A DNA stretch of 64,000 bases, from contig JAPLFR010000008.1 of the NCBI GenBank assembly GCA_026390575.1, forward strand, positions 186,001 to 250,000, in the 5' to 3' direction. The position numbers were made by a program, and so were the translations under genes. The stretch comes from Ignavibacteriales bacterium (GTDB taxonomy: Bacteria; Bacteroidota; Ignavibacteria; UBA10030). Position 1 is the stretch's first letter. Each line of letters begins with the position of its first letter. Shown here piece after piece: positions 2,623-10,604 of this stretch. The notes beneath the pieces are model-generated. The model had not been told where the DNA came from. It did no database searches and saw only the letters and a program-made list of their open reading frames with translations.

Positions 2623-4065
2623 ATGATACGGAGAAATTGGCGGTCAATATTAATTATTACTGCAATTGTTACTGATATCGTTGCGATTGTCCTTTCTGGA
2701 TTCGTAGCTTATTTCATCCGAAGTTTTATTAGCAATTTACCTATTCTTCCTTTTAATGTTTTTTTTCAGCATAGTATTCTTTTTGGGTCTGTTTTTATAT
2801 TGCTTGCATTAATTCTTGGTATCTATCGAGCGACATTACATAGTAATTCCATTCTTCTGTATTTCATAGCAGCGAAGGCATATTTGTTTGCAGTTTTCTT
2901 TTCATTAGCAATTCTCTATATTTTCGAAACAACTGTATTCCCCCGCAAATTTACGCTTTTATTCTTTCTCATTTTTCCATTTTTATTCCTTCTCGGCCGG
3001 TTCATCTTTAATGGTTTTATACGTACGATGCAGCAATATGGATATGGAGTGCATAATGTCCTCATCGCCGGATATGATAATGGTGGAATGGCAATTATCA
3101 GACGTTTCAAGAATTTTCCTGAATTGGGATATGCTCTTAAAGGAATTATTACCAATCAGAAGCATCACTCTCTTGTACCCATGGAAATTCATGGAGTCCT
3201 CGTTCCGCGATATTCCCTTACTGAGCTTGAACGAGTTATTACAGAACATAATATTGATAGAACATTTGTCCCTTCGACTGACGTAATCACAAACGGTTAT
3301 GCTTCAGTATTTGATATTTGCAAAAAAAAGAACGTTAAATTGAAAGTATTATCCGAAAATTCCGATTATCTTCTTCGGCACTCGCATATCAATGATATTG
3401 CGGGAATTACGTTGTATGCACCACCGAGAACTCGAGTTGATGTACTAAAACGAATCATGAAGCGAATATTTGATCTTGTTGTTGCCAGTGGAGTGCTGAT
3501 TATCGTAAGCCCAATTCTTATTCTTACTGCATTAGCCATTTGGATCGAGTCAGGACGTCCGATATTCTTTATCCAAAAACGCGCTGCAATAAAAGGTGGA
3601 AAGACATTTAATTTCCACAAATTCCGCAGTATGGTAAAAGATGCCGATGAAATGAAAGAATCACTGTTTGATCTGAATGAGACGGATGGCGCACTTTTTA
3701 AAATTAAGGATGATCCACGCAATACCCGGGTTGGGAAATTCATCCGGCGATATAGCATTGATGAATTACCGCAACTTATTAATGTATTTAAGGGAGAGAT
3801 GAGTATTGTGGGTCCCCGTCCATTGCCAATAGGAGATCTTCGAAAATTAAAGGAATCTAAAGAGTATTGGCATTCTATCCGAGATCGTGAAAGAATGAAA
3901 CCTGGAATCACAGGATTGTGGCAAATTTCAGGCAGGAGTAATGTAGGATTTCGGGAAATGATATGGCTCGATCTATATTATATAGAAAATCAATCGTTGT
4001 TATTTGACATAGAAATACTCTTCGCAACAATTCCAACAGTGCTGTTTGGAAATGGAGCATATTGA
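2623..4065 (+). CDS. Polyprenyl-phosphate sugar-1-phosphate transferase (WbaP/WcaJ-type)
   Basis: Starts surface polysaccharide synthesis by moving a sugar-1-phosphate from an NDP-sugar to undecaprenyl phosphate at the inner membrane. The N-terminal half has four hydrophobic segments (residues ~5-125) and a nucleotide-binding-like soluble domain (~140-245). The last ~200 residues are the bacterial sugar transferase domain: a membrane hairpin (~285-305), then KFRSM (~332), DELPQ (~380) and VGPRP (~395). The 480-residue length fits the long WbaP/WcaJ form. The ATG at 2623 follows a CTGGAGG-like ribosome site. It stands at the head of the sugar cluster, as expected for the initiating enzyme. Whether it uses glucose, galactose or another sugar cannot be read from the sequence. 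Confidence 0.93.
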   Translation: MIRRNWRSILIITAIVTDIVAIVLSGFVAYFIRSFISNLPILPFNVFFQHSILFGSVFILLALILGIYRATLHSNSILLYFIAAKAYLFAVFFSLAILYIFETTVFPRKFTLLFFLIFPFLFLLGRFIFNGFIRTMQQYGYGVHNVLIAGYDNGGMAIIRRFKNFPELGYALKGIITNQKHHSLVPMEIHGVLVPRYSLTELERVITEHNIDRTFVPSTDVITNGYASVFDICKKKNVKLKVLSENSDYLLRHSHINDIAGITLYAPPRTRVDVLKRIMKRIFDLVVASGVLIIVSPILILTALAIWIESGRPIFFIQKRAAIKGGKTFNFHKFRSMVKDADEMKESLFDLNETDGALFKIKDDPRNTRVGKFIRRYSIDELPQLINVFKGEMSIVGPRPLPIGDLRKLKESKEYWHSIRDRERMKPGITGLWQISGRSNVGFREMIWLDLYYIENQSLLFDIEILFATIPTVLFGNGAY

Positions 4066-4812: not shown

Positions 4813-6120
4813 ATGAAAATTTCAATAATCGGAACAGGGTATGTCGGACTTGTACAGGGAGCATGTTTTGCTGATTCAGGTAACAATGTTATCTGCATGG
4901 ATGTGGATGAAAAGAAAATAAACAGCTTGAAGAAGGGCATTATCCCAATTTATGAACCAGGATTGAACGAAATAGTAAGGCGTAATTCTCAAGATGGGCG
5001 GTTGGTCTTCACGACGAACCTGAAGGTTGCAGTGGAGAACTCAAAAGTGATATTTCTTTGTCTGCCGACGCCGCAATCGGAAGATGACTCTGCGGATCTT
5101 TCTCGTGTTTTATCCGTCTCCGAGAATCTTGCTGAATTAATTAATGAATATAAGGTCATTGTGAGTAAAAGCACGGTGCCAGTAGGGACCGTCGATAGGA
5201 TTAAACAAGTTATACGCAAAAAGAGCAAATATGAAGTGGAAGTTGTCTCAAATCCGGAATTTTTAAAGGAAGGTTCAGCGATACAAGATTCAATGAAACC
5301 AGACCGAATCATTATCGGCACTCGCAGTAAAAAAGCCATTGCAATACTCAAAGATTTGTATGCTCCTTTTGTGCGCACGGGGAATCCAATTCTCATTATG
5401 AATGAACGTAGTGCTGAAATGACAAAATACGCCGCAAATGCATTTCTTGCCACAAAGATTTCGTTTATGAATGAGTTATCAAATTTATGCGAAGAAGTGG
5501 GAGCAGATATAGACTGGGTACGGAAAGGTATTGGTAGCGATCCGCGGATCGGCAATCAATTTCTCTTTGCCGGGCTTGGTTATGGTGGATCATGTTTTCC
5601 GAAGGATGTAAAAGCGTTGGTGAAAACATCGCAGGAGAACGCGTGTGATTTAAAGATTCTTAGAGCAGTGGATGATGTTAATGAACGACAAAAAAAGACA
5701 TTGGTGCGAAAGCTTGTGAATTATTATAAAGGTCAATTAAAAAATAAAGTTATTGTTTTGTGGGGATTGGCGTTTAAACCCCAAACAGACGATATGCGAG
5801 CGGCACCATCCATTGAAGTAATTAACGCATTATTAAAGTTGGGAGCGCGTGTGCGTGCGCATGATCCCATTGCGCTTGCAAGAGCCAAAATACTATATCC
5901 TACAGGTGTGGAATTTTTTGAGAACAGTTACGACGCATTAAAAGGCGGAGAAGCTTTGCTCATCATTACAGAGTGGAATGAATTTCGAAGACCCGACTTC
6001 CAGCGCATAAAATCTCTCATGAAATCACCGGTTATTTTTGACGGAAGAAACATTTATGATCCGAAAGAGTTAAAAGAAGCTGGATTTACGTACTTTGGCA
6101 TGGGGAGAAAAACGGAATAA
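4813..6120 (+). CDS. ugd: UDP-glucose 6-dehydrogenase
   Basis: Oxidises UDP-glucose to UDP-glucuronate with two NAD+ in the cytoplasm, giving the precursor that the downstream UDP-glucuronate decarboxylase turns into UDP-xylose. The Rossmann motif GTGYVGL is at residues 7-13. The family's catalytic cysteine is C261 in GYGGSCFPKD. The C-terminal UDP-binding domain begins with WGLAFKPQTDDMR. The length of 435 residues is normal. A clear AGAGGTGA ribosome site precedes the ATG at 4813. It sits alone between two gaps, so it may have its own promoter. Confidence 0.96.
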   Translation: MKISIIGTGYVGLVQGACFADSGNNVICMDVDEKKINSLKKGIIPIYEPGLNEIVRRNSQDGRLVFTTNLKVAVENSKVIFLCLPTPQSEDDSADLSRVLSVSENLAELINEYKVIVSKSTVPVGTVDRIKQVIRKKSKYEVEVVSNPEFLKEGSAIQDSMKPDRIIIGTRSKKAIAILKDLYAPFVRTGNPILIMNERSAEMTKYAANAFLATKISFMNELSNLCEEVGADIDWVRKGIGSDPRIGNQFLFAGLGYGGSCFPKDVKALVKTSQENACDLKILRAVDDVNERQKKTLVRKLVNYYKGQLKNKVIVLWGLAFKPQTDDMRAAPSIEVINALLKLGARVRAHDPIALARAKILYPTGVEFFENSYDALKGGEALLIITEWNEFRRPDFQRIKSLMKSPVIFDGRNIYDPKELKEAGFTYFGMGRKTE

Positions 6121-6283: not shown

Positions 6284-7249
6284 ATGAAAAAAGCTTTAGT
6301 ATGTGGTGCTGGTGGTTTTATAGCTTGTCATCTAGTGAAAAAACTTAAAAGCGAAGGATACTGGGTACGCGGTGTCGATATTAAAAAACATGAATGGTCT
6401 CCGAAAGCGGCTGATGAATTTCTCTTACTTGATCTTCGGATAGAAGAAAATTGTCGCAAAGCGTTAACGGTTAATGGCGGTACATTTGATGAAGTATATC
6501 AACTTGCCGCAGATATGGGGGGAATGGGTTTTATTCATTCTGCAGAGACTGAAATTATGCACAATAGTGCGCTTATCAATATCTATATGACAGATCTCTC
6601 TGCACGAATGGGAGTCCCGCGATATTTCTTTTCATCTTCCGTCTGTGTTTATCGCGATATGAAACAGGGCGAGCCAGAAATGAAGGAGGCCGAGGCGATT
6701 CCAGCACATCCAGACAACGAGTACGGATGGGAAAAACTTTACTCTGAACGAATAGCGATGGCGTATGAACGCCGATTTGGTATGCAAGTACGCATAGCTC
6801 GATTCCAAAATTGTTATGGCCCTGAAGGAACATGGACGGGCGGCAGAGAAAAAGCTCCGGCTGCAATATCGCGCAAAGTAGCGGAAGTTGAAACTGGCGG
6901 TACAATTGAAGTTTGGGGAGACGGCACAGCAGTTCGTTCTTACACCTACGTGAGCGATATGGTAGACGGCATTTATCTCTTGATGCATTCTGATTTGACG
7001 GGTGCCGTAAATATTGGATGCCCGCAGTACGTCACCGTAGACGAGTTAGCTAACACAGTCGCAAAAGTTTCAGGAAAGAAAATCAACATCAAACACGTGC
7101 CTGGACCGGTTGGTGTTCAATCACGGAATTTTTCCAACGAACGGGTTTATTCGCTTGGATGGAAACCAAAAGTATATCTTGAAGATGGGGTCAAGTTGAC
7201 GTACCCTTGGATAGCAACTCAAGTGAAGGCAAATAATGCTCGGGAGTAA
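6284..7249 (+). CDS. GDP-mannose 3,5-epimerase-like SDR enzyme
   Basis: Extended short-chain dehydrogenase most like plant and bacterial GDP-mannose 3,5-epimerase, which converts GDP-D-mannose to GDP-L-galactose and GDP-L-gulose. N-terminal GAGGFIACHL is the NAD-binding motif. The family-specific AADMGGMGF segment is present, as is YxxxK (Y147, K151). So are a cysteine at the expected catalytic place (C121 in SSSVCVY), the GTWTGGREKAPAA block with K190, and the HVPGPVGV stretch. The 321 residues are shorter than the plant enzyme, mainly at the ends. It lies next to gmd and fcl, which use the same GDP-mannose substrate. A related dTDP- or UDP-sugar epimerase is less likely given these motifs. 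Confidence 0.85.
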   Translation: MKKALVCGAGGFIACHLVKKLKSEGYWVRGVDIKKHEWSPKAADEFLLLDLRIEENCRKALTVNGGTFDEVYQLAADMGGMGFIHSAETEIMHNSALINIYMTDLSARMGVPRYFFSSSVCVYRDMKQGEPEMKEAEAIPAHPDNEYGWEKLYSERIAMAYERRFGMQVRIARFQNCYGPEGTWTGGREKAPAAISRKVAEVETGGTIEVWGDGTAVRSYTYVSDMVDGIYLLMHSDLTGAVNIGCPQYVTVDELANTVAKVSGKKINIKHVPGPVGVQSRNFSNERVYSLGWKPKVYLEDGVKLTYPWIATQVKANNARE

Positions 7250-7387: not shown

Positions 7388-8536
7388 ATGAGCAATAAGA
7401 AAAAAGTCTTTGTAACAGGATGCTTTGACATGCTCCATAGTGGTCATGTTGCTTTTTTCAAGGAATCAGCCAGCTATGGTGAAGTGTATGTTGGCTTAGG
7501 TTCCGATGAAACTGTTTTCAATCTTAAGGGACGTTATCCGATCAACAATCAAAATGAACGAAAATATATGATTGATGCATTGGCCTGTGTAAAAGAATGT
7601 TTAATCAATACAGGCTCTGGCATTATGGATTTCATAAAGGAAATTGATATTGTGAAGCCGGATATCTTTGTGGTGAATGAAGAGGGAAACACTCCGGCGA
7701 AAGAAGAACTGAGCAAAAAGCTTGGAATTGAATATTTAGTTTTAAAACGGCTCCCATTCGAAAATTTACCAATCCGGTCCTCAACAGCATTAAGAGAAGA
7801 GTTAACAATGCCGTTTAGGCTTGATTTGGCTGGCGGATGGCTAGACCAACCTTATGTCGGCAAAATTGCAGCTGGTCCCGTGCTCACTATTTCGATTGAA
7901 CCAACTATTGAGTTTAACGAGAGAAGCGGAATGGCAACGAGTACGAGAAGAAAAGCAATCGAATTATGGCATACTGACGTTCCACCTGGTAATAAAGAGA
8001 AGCTTGCAAAAATTCTCTTTAGTTATGAAAACCCGCCTGGAACAAAAGTCATTTCAGGCTCTCAGGACGCAATTGGAATTGTTATGCCTTGCTTCAATAA
8101 ACTCGATTATGATGGAGGATTTTGGCCGACAAAAATTACTTCAGTTCTTGACGAAGATATTTTATCATGGATCGAAAATCACCTGAGTCTAATTACTCTT
8201 GGTCCACGGGATGATCTTTATGATGTTCTAGAAAACACACAAATTAGCAAAGAGAATGCAGAAGCTCTCAGCTCTGCAGCAGAACAGTGTTGGGATTCGA
8301 TACTAAGAAAAGATTTACAAGGATTTGGAAAATATTTTAAAAAATCATTTGAAGCACAAATAAAGATGTTCCCGAACATGGTCTATGATGATATTTTTAA
8401 AACAATCGAACGATATAAGAATTCTGCGTACGGTTGGAAATTATCTGGTGCAGGAGGAGGGGGATATTTGGTGTTTGTCACCGAACACACTTTGAGTGGA
8501 GCGATTCAATTAAAAATAAGAAGAAAGACATTGTAA
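7388..8536 (+). CDS. Nucleotidyltransferase-GHMP kinase fusion, probable sugar activation enzyme
   Basis: Two domains. Residues 1-~138 are a cytidylyltransferase-like domain (TagD/RfaE class): CFDMLHSGH gives the HxGH motif at H17-H20 and RSSTALRE the later signature. Residues ~142-382 resemble the GHMP kinase family (HddA/fucokinase-like): PFRLDLAGGWLDQP is motif 1, GMATSTRRKA sits where the ATP loop is expected, and GWKLSGAGGGG (~350-357) is motif 3. The kinase part is only ~240 residues, and the stretch between motifs 1 and 2 is much shorter than usual. By analogy with FKP and HldE, such a pair could phosphorylate a free sugar at C1 and then add a nucleotide. That is inference, and either half may have lost activity. 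It lies between the GDP-mannose epimerase-like gene and gmd/fcl, suggesting a GDP- or CDP-sugar role. Confidence 0.75.
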   Translation: MSNKKKVFVTGCFDMLHSGHVAFFKESASYGEVYVGLGSDETVFNLKGRYPINNQNERKYMIDALACVKECLINTGSGIMDFIKEIDIVKPDIFVVNEEGNTPAKEELSKKLGIEYLVLKRLPFENLPIRSSTALREELTMPFRLDLAGGWLDQPYVGKIAAGPVLTISIEPTIEFNERSGMATSTRRKAIELWHTDVPPGNKEKLAKILFSYENPPGTKVISGSQDAIGIVMPCFNKLDYDGGFWPTKITSVLDEDILSWIENHLSLITLGPRDDLYDVLENTQISKENAEALSSAAEQCWDSILRKDLQGFGKYFKKSFEAQIKMFPNMVYDDIFKTIERYKNSAYGWKLSGAGGGGYLVFVTEHTLSGAIQLKIRRKTL

Positions 8537-8629
8537 TTTTATTATAATTATTACTACGAAGGTCGCAAAGATTATTTTACACAATACACTTTTTAGCTTG
8601 TGTTTAATGAAGTCAAACGAAAGAAAAAC

Positions 8630-9676
8630 ATGACGATTAAAAAAGCTTTAATCACCGGAATAACCGGCCAGGATGGTTCTTATCTCTCGGAACTCTTACT
8701 TGAAAAAGGATATGAAGTTCACGGCATCATTCGAAGGAGCAGCTCTTTTAACACGGGAAGAATTGACCATTTATTTAATAATCCCGAGATTCAGGGAAAA
8801 ACGATGTTTCTCCATTATGGCGATCTTACGGATACGAGTAATCTTAATCGTCTTCTCGAAAAAATTGAGCCTGTAGAAATTTATAACCTTGCTGCACAAA
8901 GCCACGTAAAAGTATCATTTGAAATGCCCGAATATACTGCTGAAGTAGATGCGGTAGGTACATTGCGCTTTTTGGATGCGATTCGAGAAACAGGACTTCG
9001 CACGAAATTCTATCAGGCATCGACAAGCGAATTATTTGGTAAAGCGCAGGAAGTTCCACAGACAGAAACAACTCCTTTTTATCCTCGCAGTCCGTATGGT
9101 GTTGCGAAATTGTATGGGTATTGGATTATTATTAATTATAGAGAAGCATACGGATTATATGCCTGTAACGGTATTCTCTTCAATCATGAATCACCGAGAC
9201 GCGGGGAGACATTTGTTACAAGAAAAATATCACTTGCAGCAGCTCGTATCAAATTAGGATTGCAAGATAAGCTCACGGTAGGAAATTTGTATTCCAAGCG
9301 TGACTGGGGATACGCACCTGAATATTGCGAAGGGATGTGGCGTATGCTTCAACAGGAAAAACCGGATGATTTTATTCTTGCGACGGGAGAGACGCATACG
9401 ATTAAAGAATTCGTTGACGCGGTATTCAACGAACTGGAAATGGATTTAACCTGGAAAGGCGAAAAAGAAAACGAAGTAGGATTATTAAAAAAAGACGGGC
9501 GCGTATGTGTAGAAGTGGATCCGCGATACTATCGTCCCACGGAAGTTGAATTACTGATTGGAAATCCTGCAAAAGCAAAAGAAAAATTGGGATGGATTCC
9601 GAAGACCACATTCCGTGAGTTAGCAAAAATGATGGCAAAAGCAGATTTTGAAAAGGTGAAAAGAAGAGGTTATTAA
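8630..9676 (+). CDS. gmd: GDP-mannose 4,6-dehydratase
   Basis: Converts GDP-D-mannose to GDP-4-keto-6-deoxymannose, the first step to GDP-L-fucose. [10 protein letters not shown] near the start is the NADP-binding motif; STSELFG and YGVAKLYG hold the catalytic Thr/Glu and Tyr/Lys. The stretch [15 protein letters not shown] is diagnostic for the family. I start it at the ATG at 8630 because family members begin right before the [10 protein letters not shown] segment; a GTG at 8600 would add ten residues without homology. One base separates its stop from the fcl start, so the two are co-translated. Confidence 0.95.
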
Positions 9677-9677
9677 G

Positions 9678-10604
9678 ATGAAAATAAATGCGAAGATATA
9701 TGTTGCCGGTCATACAGGCTTAGTCGGATCGGCTATTATGCGTTCGCTCAAAGCGCAGGGATATTCCAACTTCTTGCTTCATACGATAGAAGAATTGGAT
9801 TTAACGCGCCAGTCGGCGGTGGAAGATTTGTTTAAACAAGAACGTCCTGAGTACGTCATACTTGCCGCAGCAAAAGTAGGCGGCATACAGGCAAACAATA
9901 CGTATCCGGCTGATTTCATCTATGTAAATCTGCAGTTAGAAAACAATATTATACATTCAGCATATCAGCAAGGTGTAAAAAAACTTTGCTTTTTAGGGAG
10001 CTCGTGTATCTATCCGAAGTATGCTCAACAGCCGATGAAGGAAGATTATTTGTTGGATGGTAAGTTAGAGCCCACAAACGAACCCTATGCGATTGCAAAA
10101 ATCGCTGGAATAAAAATGTGTCAGGCATATAACAGGCAGTATGGAACGAATTTTATTTCTGTCATGCCGACCAATCTTTACGGACCTCACGATAACTTCG
10201 AACTGCAGAGTTCTCATGTGTTACCGGCGCTTATAAGAAAATTTGTGGATGCAAGGAAGGCATCAGCTGCTTCTGTGACTGTTTGGGGAACAGGTTCCCC
10301 AAAACGGGAATTTTTATTTGTGGATGATCTTGCAGATGCGGTTGTTTTCTTAATGAATCACTATGATGACGGCGAAATTGTGAATATAGGCACGGGAAAA
10401 GATATTTCAATCCTCGAGCTTGCCCATGTCATCAAAGAAGAAGTTGGTTTTACCGGCTCCATTGAATTCGATGCAACGAAACCCGATGGCACACCGAGAA
10501 AATTACTTAATGTCTCGAAAATTAACGCACTTGGCTGGACAGCCAAAACCCCGCTGCGCGAAGGTATTAGAAAAACAATTCAGTGGTATTTGGAGAACAA
10601 ATGA
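9678..10604 (+). CDS. fcl: GDP-L-fucose synthase
   Basis: Epimerises and reduces the Gmd product to GDP-L-fucose with [16 protein letters not shown] is the cofactor loop, GSSCIYP holds the catalytic Ser and Cys region, and Y137/K141 (YAIAK) match the E. coli enzyme's Tyr/Lys pair. [11 protein letters not shown] is the substrate-binding segment. Length (308) is normal. The stop overlaps the next start as ATGA, so gmd, fcl and the following decarboxylase form one translation-coupled unit. Confidence 0.95.

Follow-up and report, generated by a model that had tools for sequence, protein, structure and literature searches.

A compact nucleotidyltransferase-GHMP kinase fusion from an Ignavibacteriales bacterium as a candidate alternative L-fucose-activating enzyme

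Bacteria commonly decorate their surface sugars with L-fucose. The bacterial fucose salvage enzyme described in the literature that we found is FKP, the L-fucokinase/GDP-L-fucose pyrophosphorylase known from Bacteroides fragilis (PDB 9IIP, 9IIT, and 5YYS), a chain of about 950 residues in which a PF07959-family nucleotidyltransferase (NTase) that carries a beta-helix precedes a GHMP fucokinase. According to the accessible part of a study of FKP (PMC11982464), the D762A and E751A mutants are inactive, kcat/Km for fucose falls over 3000-fold in W599A and D601A, and both D762 and the phosphate loops make contacts to the product as well. Two heptose systems resemble parts of the protein described here. 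HldE (RfaE), the heptose-7-phosphate kinase/heptose-1-phosphate adenylyltransferase, joins a related HxGH NTase to a sugar kinase, and HddA/WcbL, the D-glycero-D-manno-heptose-7-phosphate kinase, has the GHMP fold. Furthermore, a selection for D-arabinose-resistant Akkermansia muciniphila was published in Gut Microbes in June 2026 (PMC13313206). In the part of that article available to us, 12 of 12 resistant mutants were altered in Amuc_1591 (V176G, G326E, or a frameshift), the remainder of the 48 mutations being background according to the authors, and growth was restored by L-fucose or mucin. The authors aligned the C-terminal domain of Amuc_1591 to the FKP fucokinase, called it the sugar-binding part, predicted a shared transcript with murJ, and proposed on genetic evidence that the protein is a previously uncharacterised fucose-nucleotidyltransferase. 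The NTase-GHMP architecture is thus already in print, from Akkermansia.

We analysed a window of 64,000 nucleotides from an Ignavibacteriales bacterium, the whole stretch of DNA under study, to which all positions below refer unless a locus is named. It contains an intact open reading frame for a protein, P0001, whose subfamily is called type A; frame 1 of the reverse complement of the same interval holds many stops. Conservation in type A was counted over 91 rows representing 85 distinct sequences; counts over 87 rows leave out four duplicates and still hold two identical pairs. The features of the protein are as follows.

7388..8536, + strand: P0001, putative bifunctional nucleotidyltransferase/compact GHMP kinase, 382 aa
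7400..7804, + strand: N-terminal HxGH NTase domain, residues 5-139 (Pfam CTP_transf_like; structural matches)
7436..7447, + strand: HxGH motif, H17-S-G-H20, both His invariant in 85/85 distinct sequences
7811..7852, + strand: GHMP motif 1, residues 142-155, P142-F-R-L-D-L-A-G-G-W-L-D-Q-P155, with R144, W151, and D153 (FKP R592, W599, and D601, respectively), aligned to FKP RIDMAGGWTDTP
7913..7948, + strand: ATP-loop equivalent FNERSGMATSTR, residues 176-187, with N177, G181, S185, and R187 invariant in 85/85
8027..8029, + strand: E214, acidic, at the place of FKP E751 (position from alignments)
8057..8068, + strand: GSQD, residues 224-227, catalytic-base motif (FKP G759, Q761, D762), with G, Q, and D invariant in 85/85
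8438..8467, + strand: motif 3, KLSGAGGGGY, residues 351-360, with K351 and G354-Y360 invariant in the 51-row alignment

At residue 235 (8090-8092), immediately after P234, P0001 has a Cys where type A has a nearly invariant Gly.

Pfam recognised CTP_transf_like at residues 9-137 (E 4.9e-11) and GHMP_kinases_C at residues 306-377 (E 2.1e-4), and the general model TIGR00125 (cyt_tran_rel) scored 40.9 bits against a cut-off of 27.7; among NCBIfam equivalog and equivalog-domain models, none scored over its cut-off on P0001. These matches and the motifs listed above bear out the preliminary description, which had been made from the DNA letters and had placed an HxGH NTase ahead of a GHMP-like domain with intact motifs 1 and 3 (both are conserved in the alignments) and an unusually short distance from motif 1 to motif 2. 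This distance is 37 residues from R144 to G181 in P0001, compared with 125 residues from R592 to G717 in FKP (accessible part of PMC11982464), that is, about 88 residues fewer when G181 is paired with FKP G717 by motif. An AlphaFold2 model computed from alignment A1 (51 rows, namely the window and 50 of 66 loci encoding relatives, with fragments and some near-duplicates left out) had a mean pLDDT of 88.3 and a pTM of 0.66; confidence was low across the linker at about residues 121-140, which makes the mutual placement of the domains uncertain. The preliminary description had proposed a structural comparison, and the predicted model does carry a GHMP fold, matching the WcbL heptokinase at Z 21.2 and, at Z 19.6, the fucokinase part of FKP (9iip), both with an rmsd of 2.8; 233 of 345 residues were aligned in the first case and 226 of 361 in the second. 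The modelled NTase part matched 1coz (Z 16.8, rmsd 2.4, 125 aligned), 5x3d (Z 16.4), and 3glv (Z 16.4). That the top structural match of the predicted kinase part is a heptokinase, not FKP, counts against a role in activating L-fucose. A profile search of the PDB ranked the FKP kinase part first among sugar kinases (E 1.3e-13), with HddA (3k85, E 5.9e-8) and WcbL (4usm, E 5.4e-5) behind it.

P0001 shares with FKP the domain order, a related kinase domain, the same fucose pocket residues, and the same likely pathway, whereas its NTase belongs to the HxGH (CTP_transf_like) type and the whole chain is far shorter. The kinase of HldE is of the PfkB type and stands in the opposite order, and HddA/WcbL lacks an NTase, retains the full motif 1-to-2 segment, and acts on a different sugar. 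The earlier view that FKP and HldE join kinase and transferase with other families or in the opposite order therefore holds for the NTase family of FKP and the domain order of HldE, but not for the FKP kinase, which is related, nor for the FKP order, which is the same.

We consider it probable that P0001 serves the salvage of free L-fucose as a bifunctional L-fucokinase/L-fucose-1-phosphate nucleotidylyltransferase. This reading is based on the domains, the predicted fold, conservation, gene context, and mutual exclusion with FKP; from these we infer both chemical steps, L-fucose as the natural substrate, GTP, and the phosphate donor. In the proposed mechanism, L-fucose would bind in the GHMP domain, stacked on W151 and held by D153 and Q226/D227, and D227 would activate its C1 hydroxyl. 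The GMATSTR and GAGGGG loops would position a phosphate, whose transfer to the sugar would then yield L-fucose-1-phosphate, which the N-terminal HxGH domain would join to an NTP, most likely GTP, with release of pyrophosphate. The resulting NDP-L-fucose would feed the surrounding polysaccharide genes. P0001 would thereby do the job of FKP with a different nucleotidyltransferase and with a kinase stripped of its usual adenine-binding part. GTP is suggested by the co-location with genes for GDP-mannose 4,6-dehydratase (gmd) and GDP-fucose synthase and by GDP-fucose being what fucosyltransferases use (accessible part of PMC11982464). On the other hand, the families that the NTase resembles are named as CTP or ATP users, and a GTP user among HxGH enzymes would be unusual, which counts against GTP; no GTP-using HxGH sugar enzyme was recognised in our literature search.

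Relatives of P0001, mostly full-length and about 50-76% identical, are encoded at 66 loci of the genome_contigs set, from Ignavibacteriae, Bacteroidales, Chloroflexi/Anaerolineae, Verrucomicrobia, Armatimonadetes, Victivallis, and others. A decayed gene was considered and ruled out by the full-length relatives across several phyla. In a 58-row alignment, likewise without fragments and some near-duplicates, the HxGH motif, motif 1 (PYRIDLAGGWLDQP), the loop FNERSGMA[ST]S[TS]R, GSQD, and the motif 3 core GAGGGGY are nearly invariant. Searching 387 Verrucomicrobiota genomes with the A1 profile returned type A together with three other forms. Type B proteins have about 360-390 residues, a GLGGSG loop, GWQDP, and GGG.GG; type C is a stand-alone kinase ORF of 264-308 residues with a GMATGTR-type loop; type D has about 450 residues and a GSGLTTST loop and is closer to HddA/WcbL. 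Five of the eight type-C loci read (L115, L116, L117, L118, L121, L122, L123, and L129) adjoin a gene with two tandem NTase domains, the first of which is without HxGH in all six such genes read (those of the five type-C loci and of L124), and Pfam recognised none of three type-C kinase ORFs. The short distance from motif 1 to the loop is common to types A-D (13 sequences) and is thus an old feature of the group, not a sign that one gene has decayed. In a tree of 38 NTase rows, rooted on a three-row rfaE outgroup (three of seven candidate rfaE rows passed the filter) and with one row dropped for lack of columns, types A-D stand apart from the rfaE rows (100/100), B forms one clade (100/99), and C groups with A (98/96). 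As a separate observation, the loops of two type-D proteins (L125 5909-7294 and L126 6406-7740) are intermediate between GLGxSS and GMATST, and both genes lie downstream of what appear by eye to be two-component regulator genes.

Around P0001, the following genes were identified.

2623-4065, window coordinates: sugar transferase (Pfam)
4813-6120, window coordinates: UDP-glucose/GDP-mannose dehydrogenase (Pfam)
6284..7249, + strand: GDP-mannose 3,5-epimerase-like gene directly upstream of P0001 (phmmer to 2c59, E 2.8e-84)
8600..9676, + strand: GDP-mannose 4,6-dehydratase, gmd (TIGR01472, 567.9 bits, over cut-off)
9678..10604, + strand: GDP-L-fucose synthase (NF047922, 500.2 bits against a cut-off of 500)

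P0001 lies inside a polysaccharide gene cluster, to which, by eye, more genes for sugars, a flippase function, and glycosyltransferases belong as far as 18 kb. Neither FucP nor a mutarotase adjoins P0001 in the window, which counts against the fucose reading; a FucP gene over the cut-off lies about 156 kb upstream of the window in the same genome, which has three GHMP_kinases_C matches, P0001 being one of them. Elsewhere, fucose genes recur beside the family. Among 94 other distinct type-A loci (98 loci minus L070, L081, L082, and L085, which repeat L006, L040, L046, and L051; many flanks cover only 1.5 kb), a rhaM-type mutarotase was found at 17, FucP at 8, gmd at 16, GDP-fucose synthase at 15, FucI and a GH29 fucosidase at 3 each, and FucU, a FucK-like gene, and a FucA-like aldolase at 2 each. 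In the genome_contigs set, 22 of the 66 loci had at least one gene for taking up or breaking down fucose, 16 had one for making GDP-fucose de novo, and 32 had one kind or the other. A rough estimate of chance for these 66 loci gave 0.16 expected FucP against 7 seen and 0.12 expected gmd against 14 seen, where the chance density comes from E-value limits in whole genomes, the observed counts come from phmmer scores and include the L001 FucP that falls under the limit used for the density, and related loci are not independent. All three FucP proteins tested passed TIGR00885, and all five small neighbours tested were PF05336 (rhaM). At L008 (2159-3943), a single ORF of 595 residues unites a rhaM mutarotase (1.2e-20), CTP_transf_like (5e-14), and a GHMP part. 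Mutarotase and permease neighbours make sense for an enzyme that acts at C1 of a free sugar. The naming of PF05336 after L-rhamnose counts against the fucose reading; some of its members are, we presume, called L-fucose mutarotases. Among the ten type-B loci read for neighbours, gmd and GDP-fucose synthase were seen at L114 only and the other fucose genes at none. Since gmd is present in most genomes (42 of 51 type-A genomes, that of P0001 included, and 19 of 20 type-B genomes), salvage in most of them would supplement the de novo route and not substitute for it.

If the family does the job of FKP, the two might be expected to exclude each other. PF07959 was not found in the genome of P0001. 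FKP was sought in the genomes of 50 of the 66 loci, and PF07959 scored over its cut-off in 0 of these 50 (four had 18-19 bits, below the cut-off of 34), as well as in 0 of 20 type-B genomes. In the 387 Verrucomicrobiota genomes, FKP occurred in 0 of 99 genomes with a type-A or type-B fusion and in 55 of 288 without (Fisher 4.3e-8, uncorrected for ancestry); separately, it accompanied type A in 0 of 41 genomes and type B in 0 of 58. Types A and B never shared a genome (p 0.0018, likewise uncorrected for ancestry), and type C occurred together with FKP in 6 of 10 genomes. In these counts at most five candidates per genome were scored, so that true membership is at least as large as given; match shape served to set the types, and the sequences of nine type-B and eight type-C loci were read; and G040 and G705 were counted as both A and C and G690 as both B and C, with G404 and G529 outside the type counts. 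Such a pattern, in which A and B are never found with FKP and C often is, is expected if A and B do the job of FKP and C another. In the phylum of the window (296 genomes), full-length type A (3 genomes), the type-B protein (1, L073), and PF07959 over its cut-off (3) are too rare for this comparison. The A1 profile had some match in 200 of the 296 genomes, nearly all to the NTase part only among the matches listed, and PF07959 had some match in 58, mostly under its cut-off.

The gene context also bears on which sugar is activated. The natural substrate in the window cluster might be L-galactose, or another L-galacto-configured sugar, giving GDP-L-galactose, with L-fucose used only in other branches; we regard this as unlikely, yet as the strongest of the alternatives. 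It is suggested by the GDP-mannose 3,5-epimerase gene directly upstream of P0001 and again at L002, and by type C, where a GDP-mannose 3,5-epimerase-like gene adjoins the kinase in 8 of 8 loci read and a mannose-1-phosphate guanylyltransferase-like gene is near in 4 of the 8. Because type C is found with FKP in most of its genomes, it probably does not do the job of FKP, and the function that one would first guess for it is L-galactose activation. Bacterial GDP-mannose 3,5-epimerases have been described (PMC8787198), and the portion of that article covered makes no mention of such a kinase. However, L002 is the only one of the 94 other distinct type-A loci with the epimerase, fucose genes are frequent among them, and in the window itself gmd and GDP-fucose synthase directly follow P0001. 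The preliminary description had suggested a separately evolved sugar-activating enzyme and had named fucose and L-galactose among the sugars to try; a separately assembled enzyme is supported, and both sugars were good guesses.

Canonical GHMP motif 2 reads P-x3-GLGxSS. P0001 departs from it, with RSGMA[ST]S[TS]R instead. The ATP loop had been described as replaced by GMATSTRRKA; altered it is, but not simply lost, as GMA[ST]S[TS]R occupies the GLGxSS place and its G181, S185, and R187 do not vary in type A, and the canonical GLGGSG loop occurs in sister proteins whose spacing is equally short. In the ATP model of the FKP study (accessible part of PMC11982464), the base lies near I669, L722, M645, D644, and P666, and four of these five contacts (D644, M645, P666, and I669) fall in the stretch that is mostly absent from P0001. 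When the type-D protein of L126 was aligned to WcbL, the alignment jumped from WcbL residue 39 to 107 across 12 residues, which locates the deletion: type D lacks most of the counterpart of WcbL 40-106. With most of the motif 1-to-2 segment missing, ATP binding is left without its usual explanation, and this speaks against a P0001 that phosphorylates fucose. The remainder of the active site is retained. Equivalents of FKP R592, W599, D601, G759, Q761, and D762 are invariant in 85/85 distinct type-A sequences, and the E751 place is acidic throughout (E in 50 and D in 37 of 87 rows). On the other side, FKP T602, which also lines the pocket, is replaced by Q in 86 of 87 rows, counting against the fucose reading. 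Position A355 of motif 3 is A in 72, C in 13, and S in 2 of the 87 rows.

It could be asked whether the GHMP domain is a pseudokinase that binds only fucose or fucose-1-phosphate, with the NTase fed by another kinase. We judge this rather improbable, somewhat more so than L-galactose as the substrate. Its case consists of the missing adenine-binding segment, the altered ATP loop, and the reading of the Akkermansia authors, who, with the FKP alignment in hand, named Amuc_1591 a nucleotidyltransferase with a sugar-binding C-terminal domain (available part of PMC13313206). In addition, conservation alone proves no catalysis, because D762 of FKP touches the sugar too and the phosphate loops contact the product. 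The retention of the catalytic set, with the acidic residue at the E751 place, the loop Ser, and the Asp base in all 85 distinct type-A sequences, nevertheless favours a working kinase over a remnant, as far as sequence can tell. Moreover, sister type B retains GLGGSG and GWQDP, compact kinases exist as stand-alone genes in type C, permease and mutarotase neighbours imply a free sugar, and FKP was not found over the cut-off in the type-A family and type-B genomes searched. The second suggestion of the preliminary description, a lost kinase used for binding, is for these reasons less likely, the equivalents of D762, E751, and R592 and the loop Ser all being kept.

The closest published protein was located in our data at L110 (7122-8210, - strand), whose product carries V176 and G326 and whose gene overlaps a MurJ gene (TIGR01695, 358.5 bits); on these grounds it is taken as Amuc_1591. 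V176 lies just ahead of its loop, and G326 lies inside its motif 3. Like P0001, Amuc_1591 combines an HxGH NTase and an equally compressed GHMP domain in one chain and has a proposed fucose role, and it is about 32% identical to P0001 over residues 5-185. The genetics of Amuc_1591 speak for the reading of P0001 as a fucose enzyme, and this low identity speaks against it. Amuc_1591 differs from P0001, with its GMATST and GSQD, in having a GLGGSG loop, GWQDP, a GGGYGG motif 3, and a shorter kinase, occupies a separate branch of the NTase tree, and has MurJ adjoining it in L110; no fucose genes were found around L110 when sought. By their sequences, P0001 and Amuc_1591 are the same kind of protein from different subfamilies. 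The preliminary description had set, as grounds against itself, a lack of the GHMP fold or close homologues of known activity: the fold is present in the predicted model, while the second ground applies in part, as there is genetic fucose evidence for the sister Amuc_1591 (available part of PMC13313206). The type-A subfamily, its altered ATP loop, and the split form beside GDP-mannose 3,5-epimerase were absent from the literature searched, which held few subscription papers and no bioRxiv preprints.

A heptose enzyme like HldE or HddA/HddC, making ADP- or GDP-heptose, is very improbable and was rejected: the NTase domain matches rfaE_dom_II (TIGR02199) at 57.8 bits, the kinase part weakly matches HddA (NF049969, 27.5 bits), and WcbL is its top structural match, but the sequence matches are all far below the curated cut-offs (181.5 and 600 bits), P0001 has a GHMP part instead of PfkB, the gene context is fucose where informative, and the two parts of HldE are encoded elsewhere in the same genome. 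There, HldE is split into adjacent kinase and NTase genes, both over their cut-offs (L069, G000 C6 341360-341644).

If the reading of P0001 as an L-fucose-activating enzyme is true, a GHMP kinase can function after losing its adenine-holding part, and a compact enzyme of about 380 residues would be available for producing activated L-fucose. Fucose salvage would also be commoner than FKP searches show, Akkermansia included, if the family does the job of FKP. A broader proposition, which we hold to be possible but doubtful, is that a second, separately assembled L-fucose salvage route replaces FKP across several phyla, its GHMP kinase using a new ATP hold or another phosphate donor, with the first GDP-sugar-making HxGH NTase and a split branch that activates L-galactose.

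Two further arrangements were seen in the family. At L119 (6919-8524) and L120 (5987-7582), a type-B fusion is directly followed by a solo NTase, and the solo NTases score 190 and 186 bits against the type-A profile, compared with 105 and 107 bits for the NTase parts of the fusions themselves. In the phylum of the window, one genome (G222) holds two full-length copies, on C58 (L071) and C61, scoring 650 and 452 bits, which perhaps serve different sugars.
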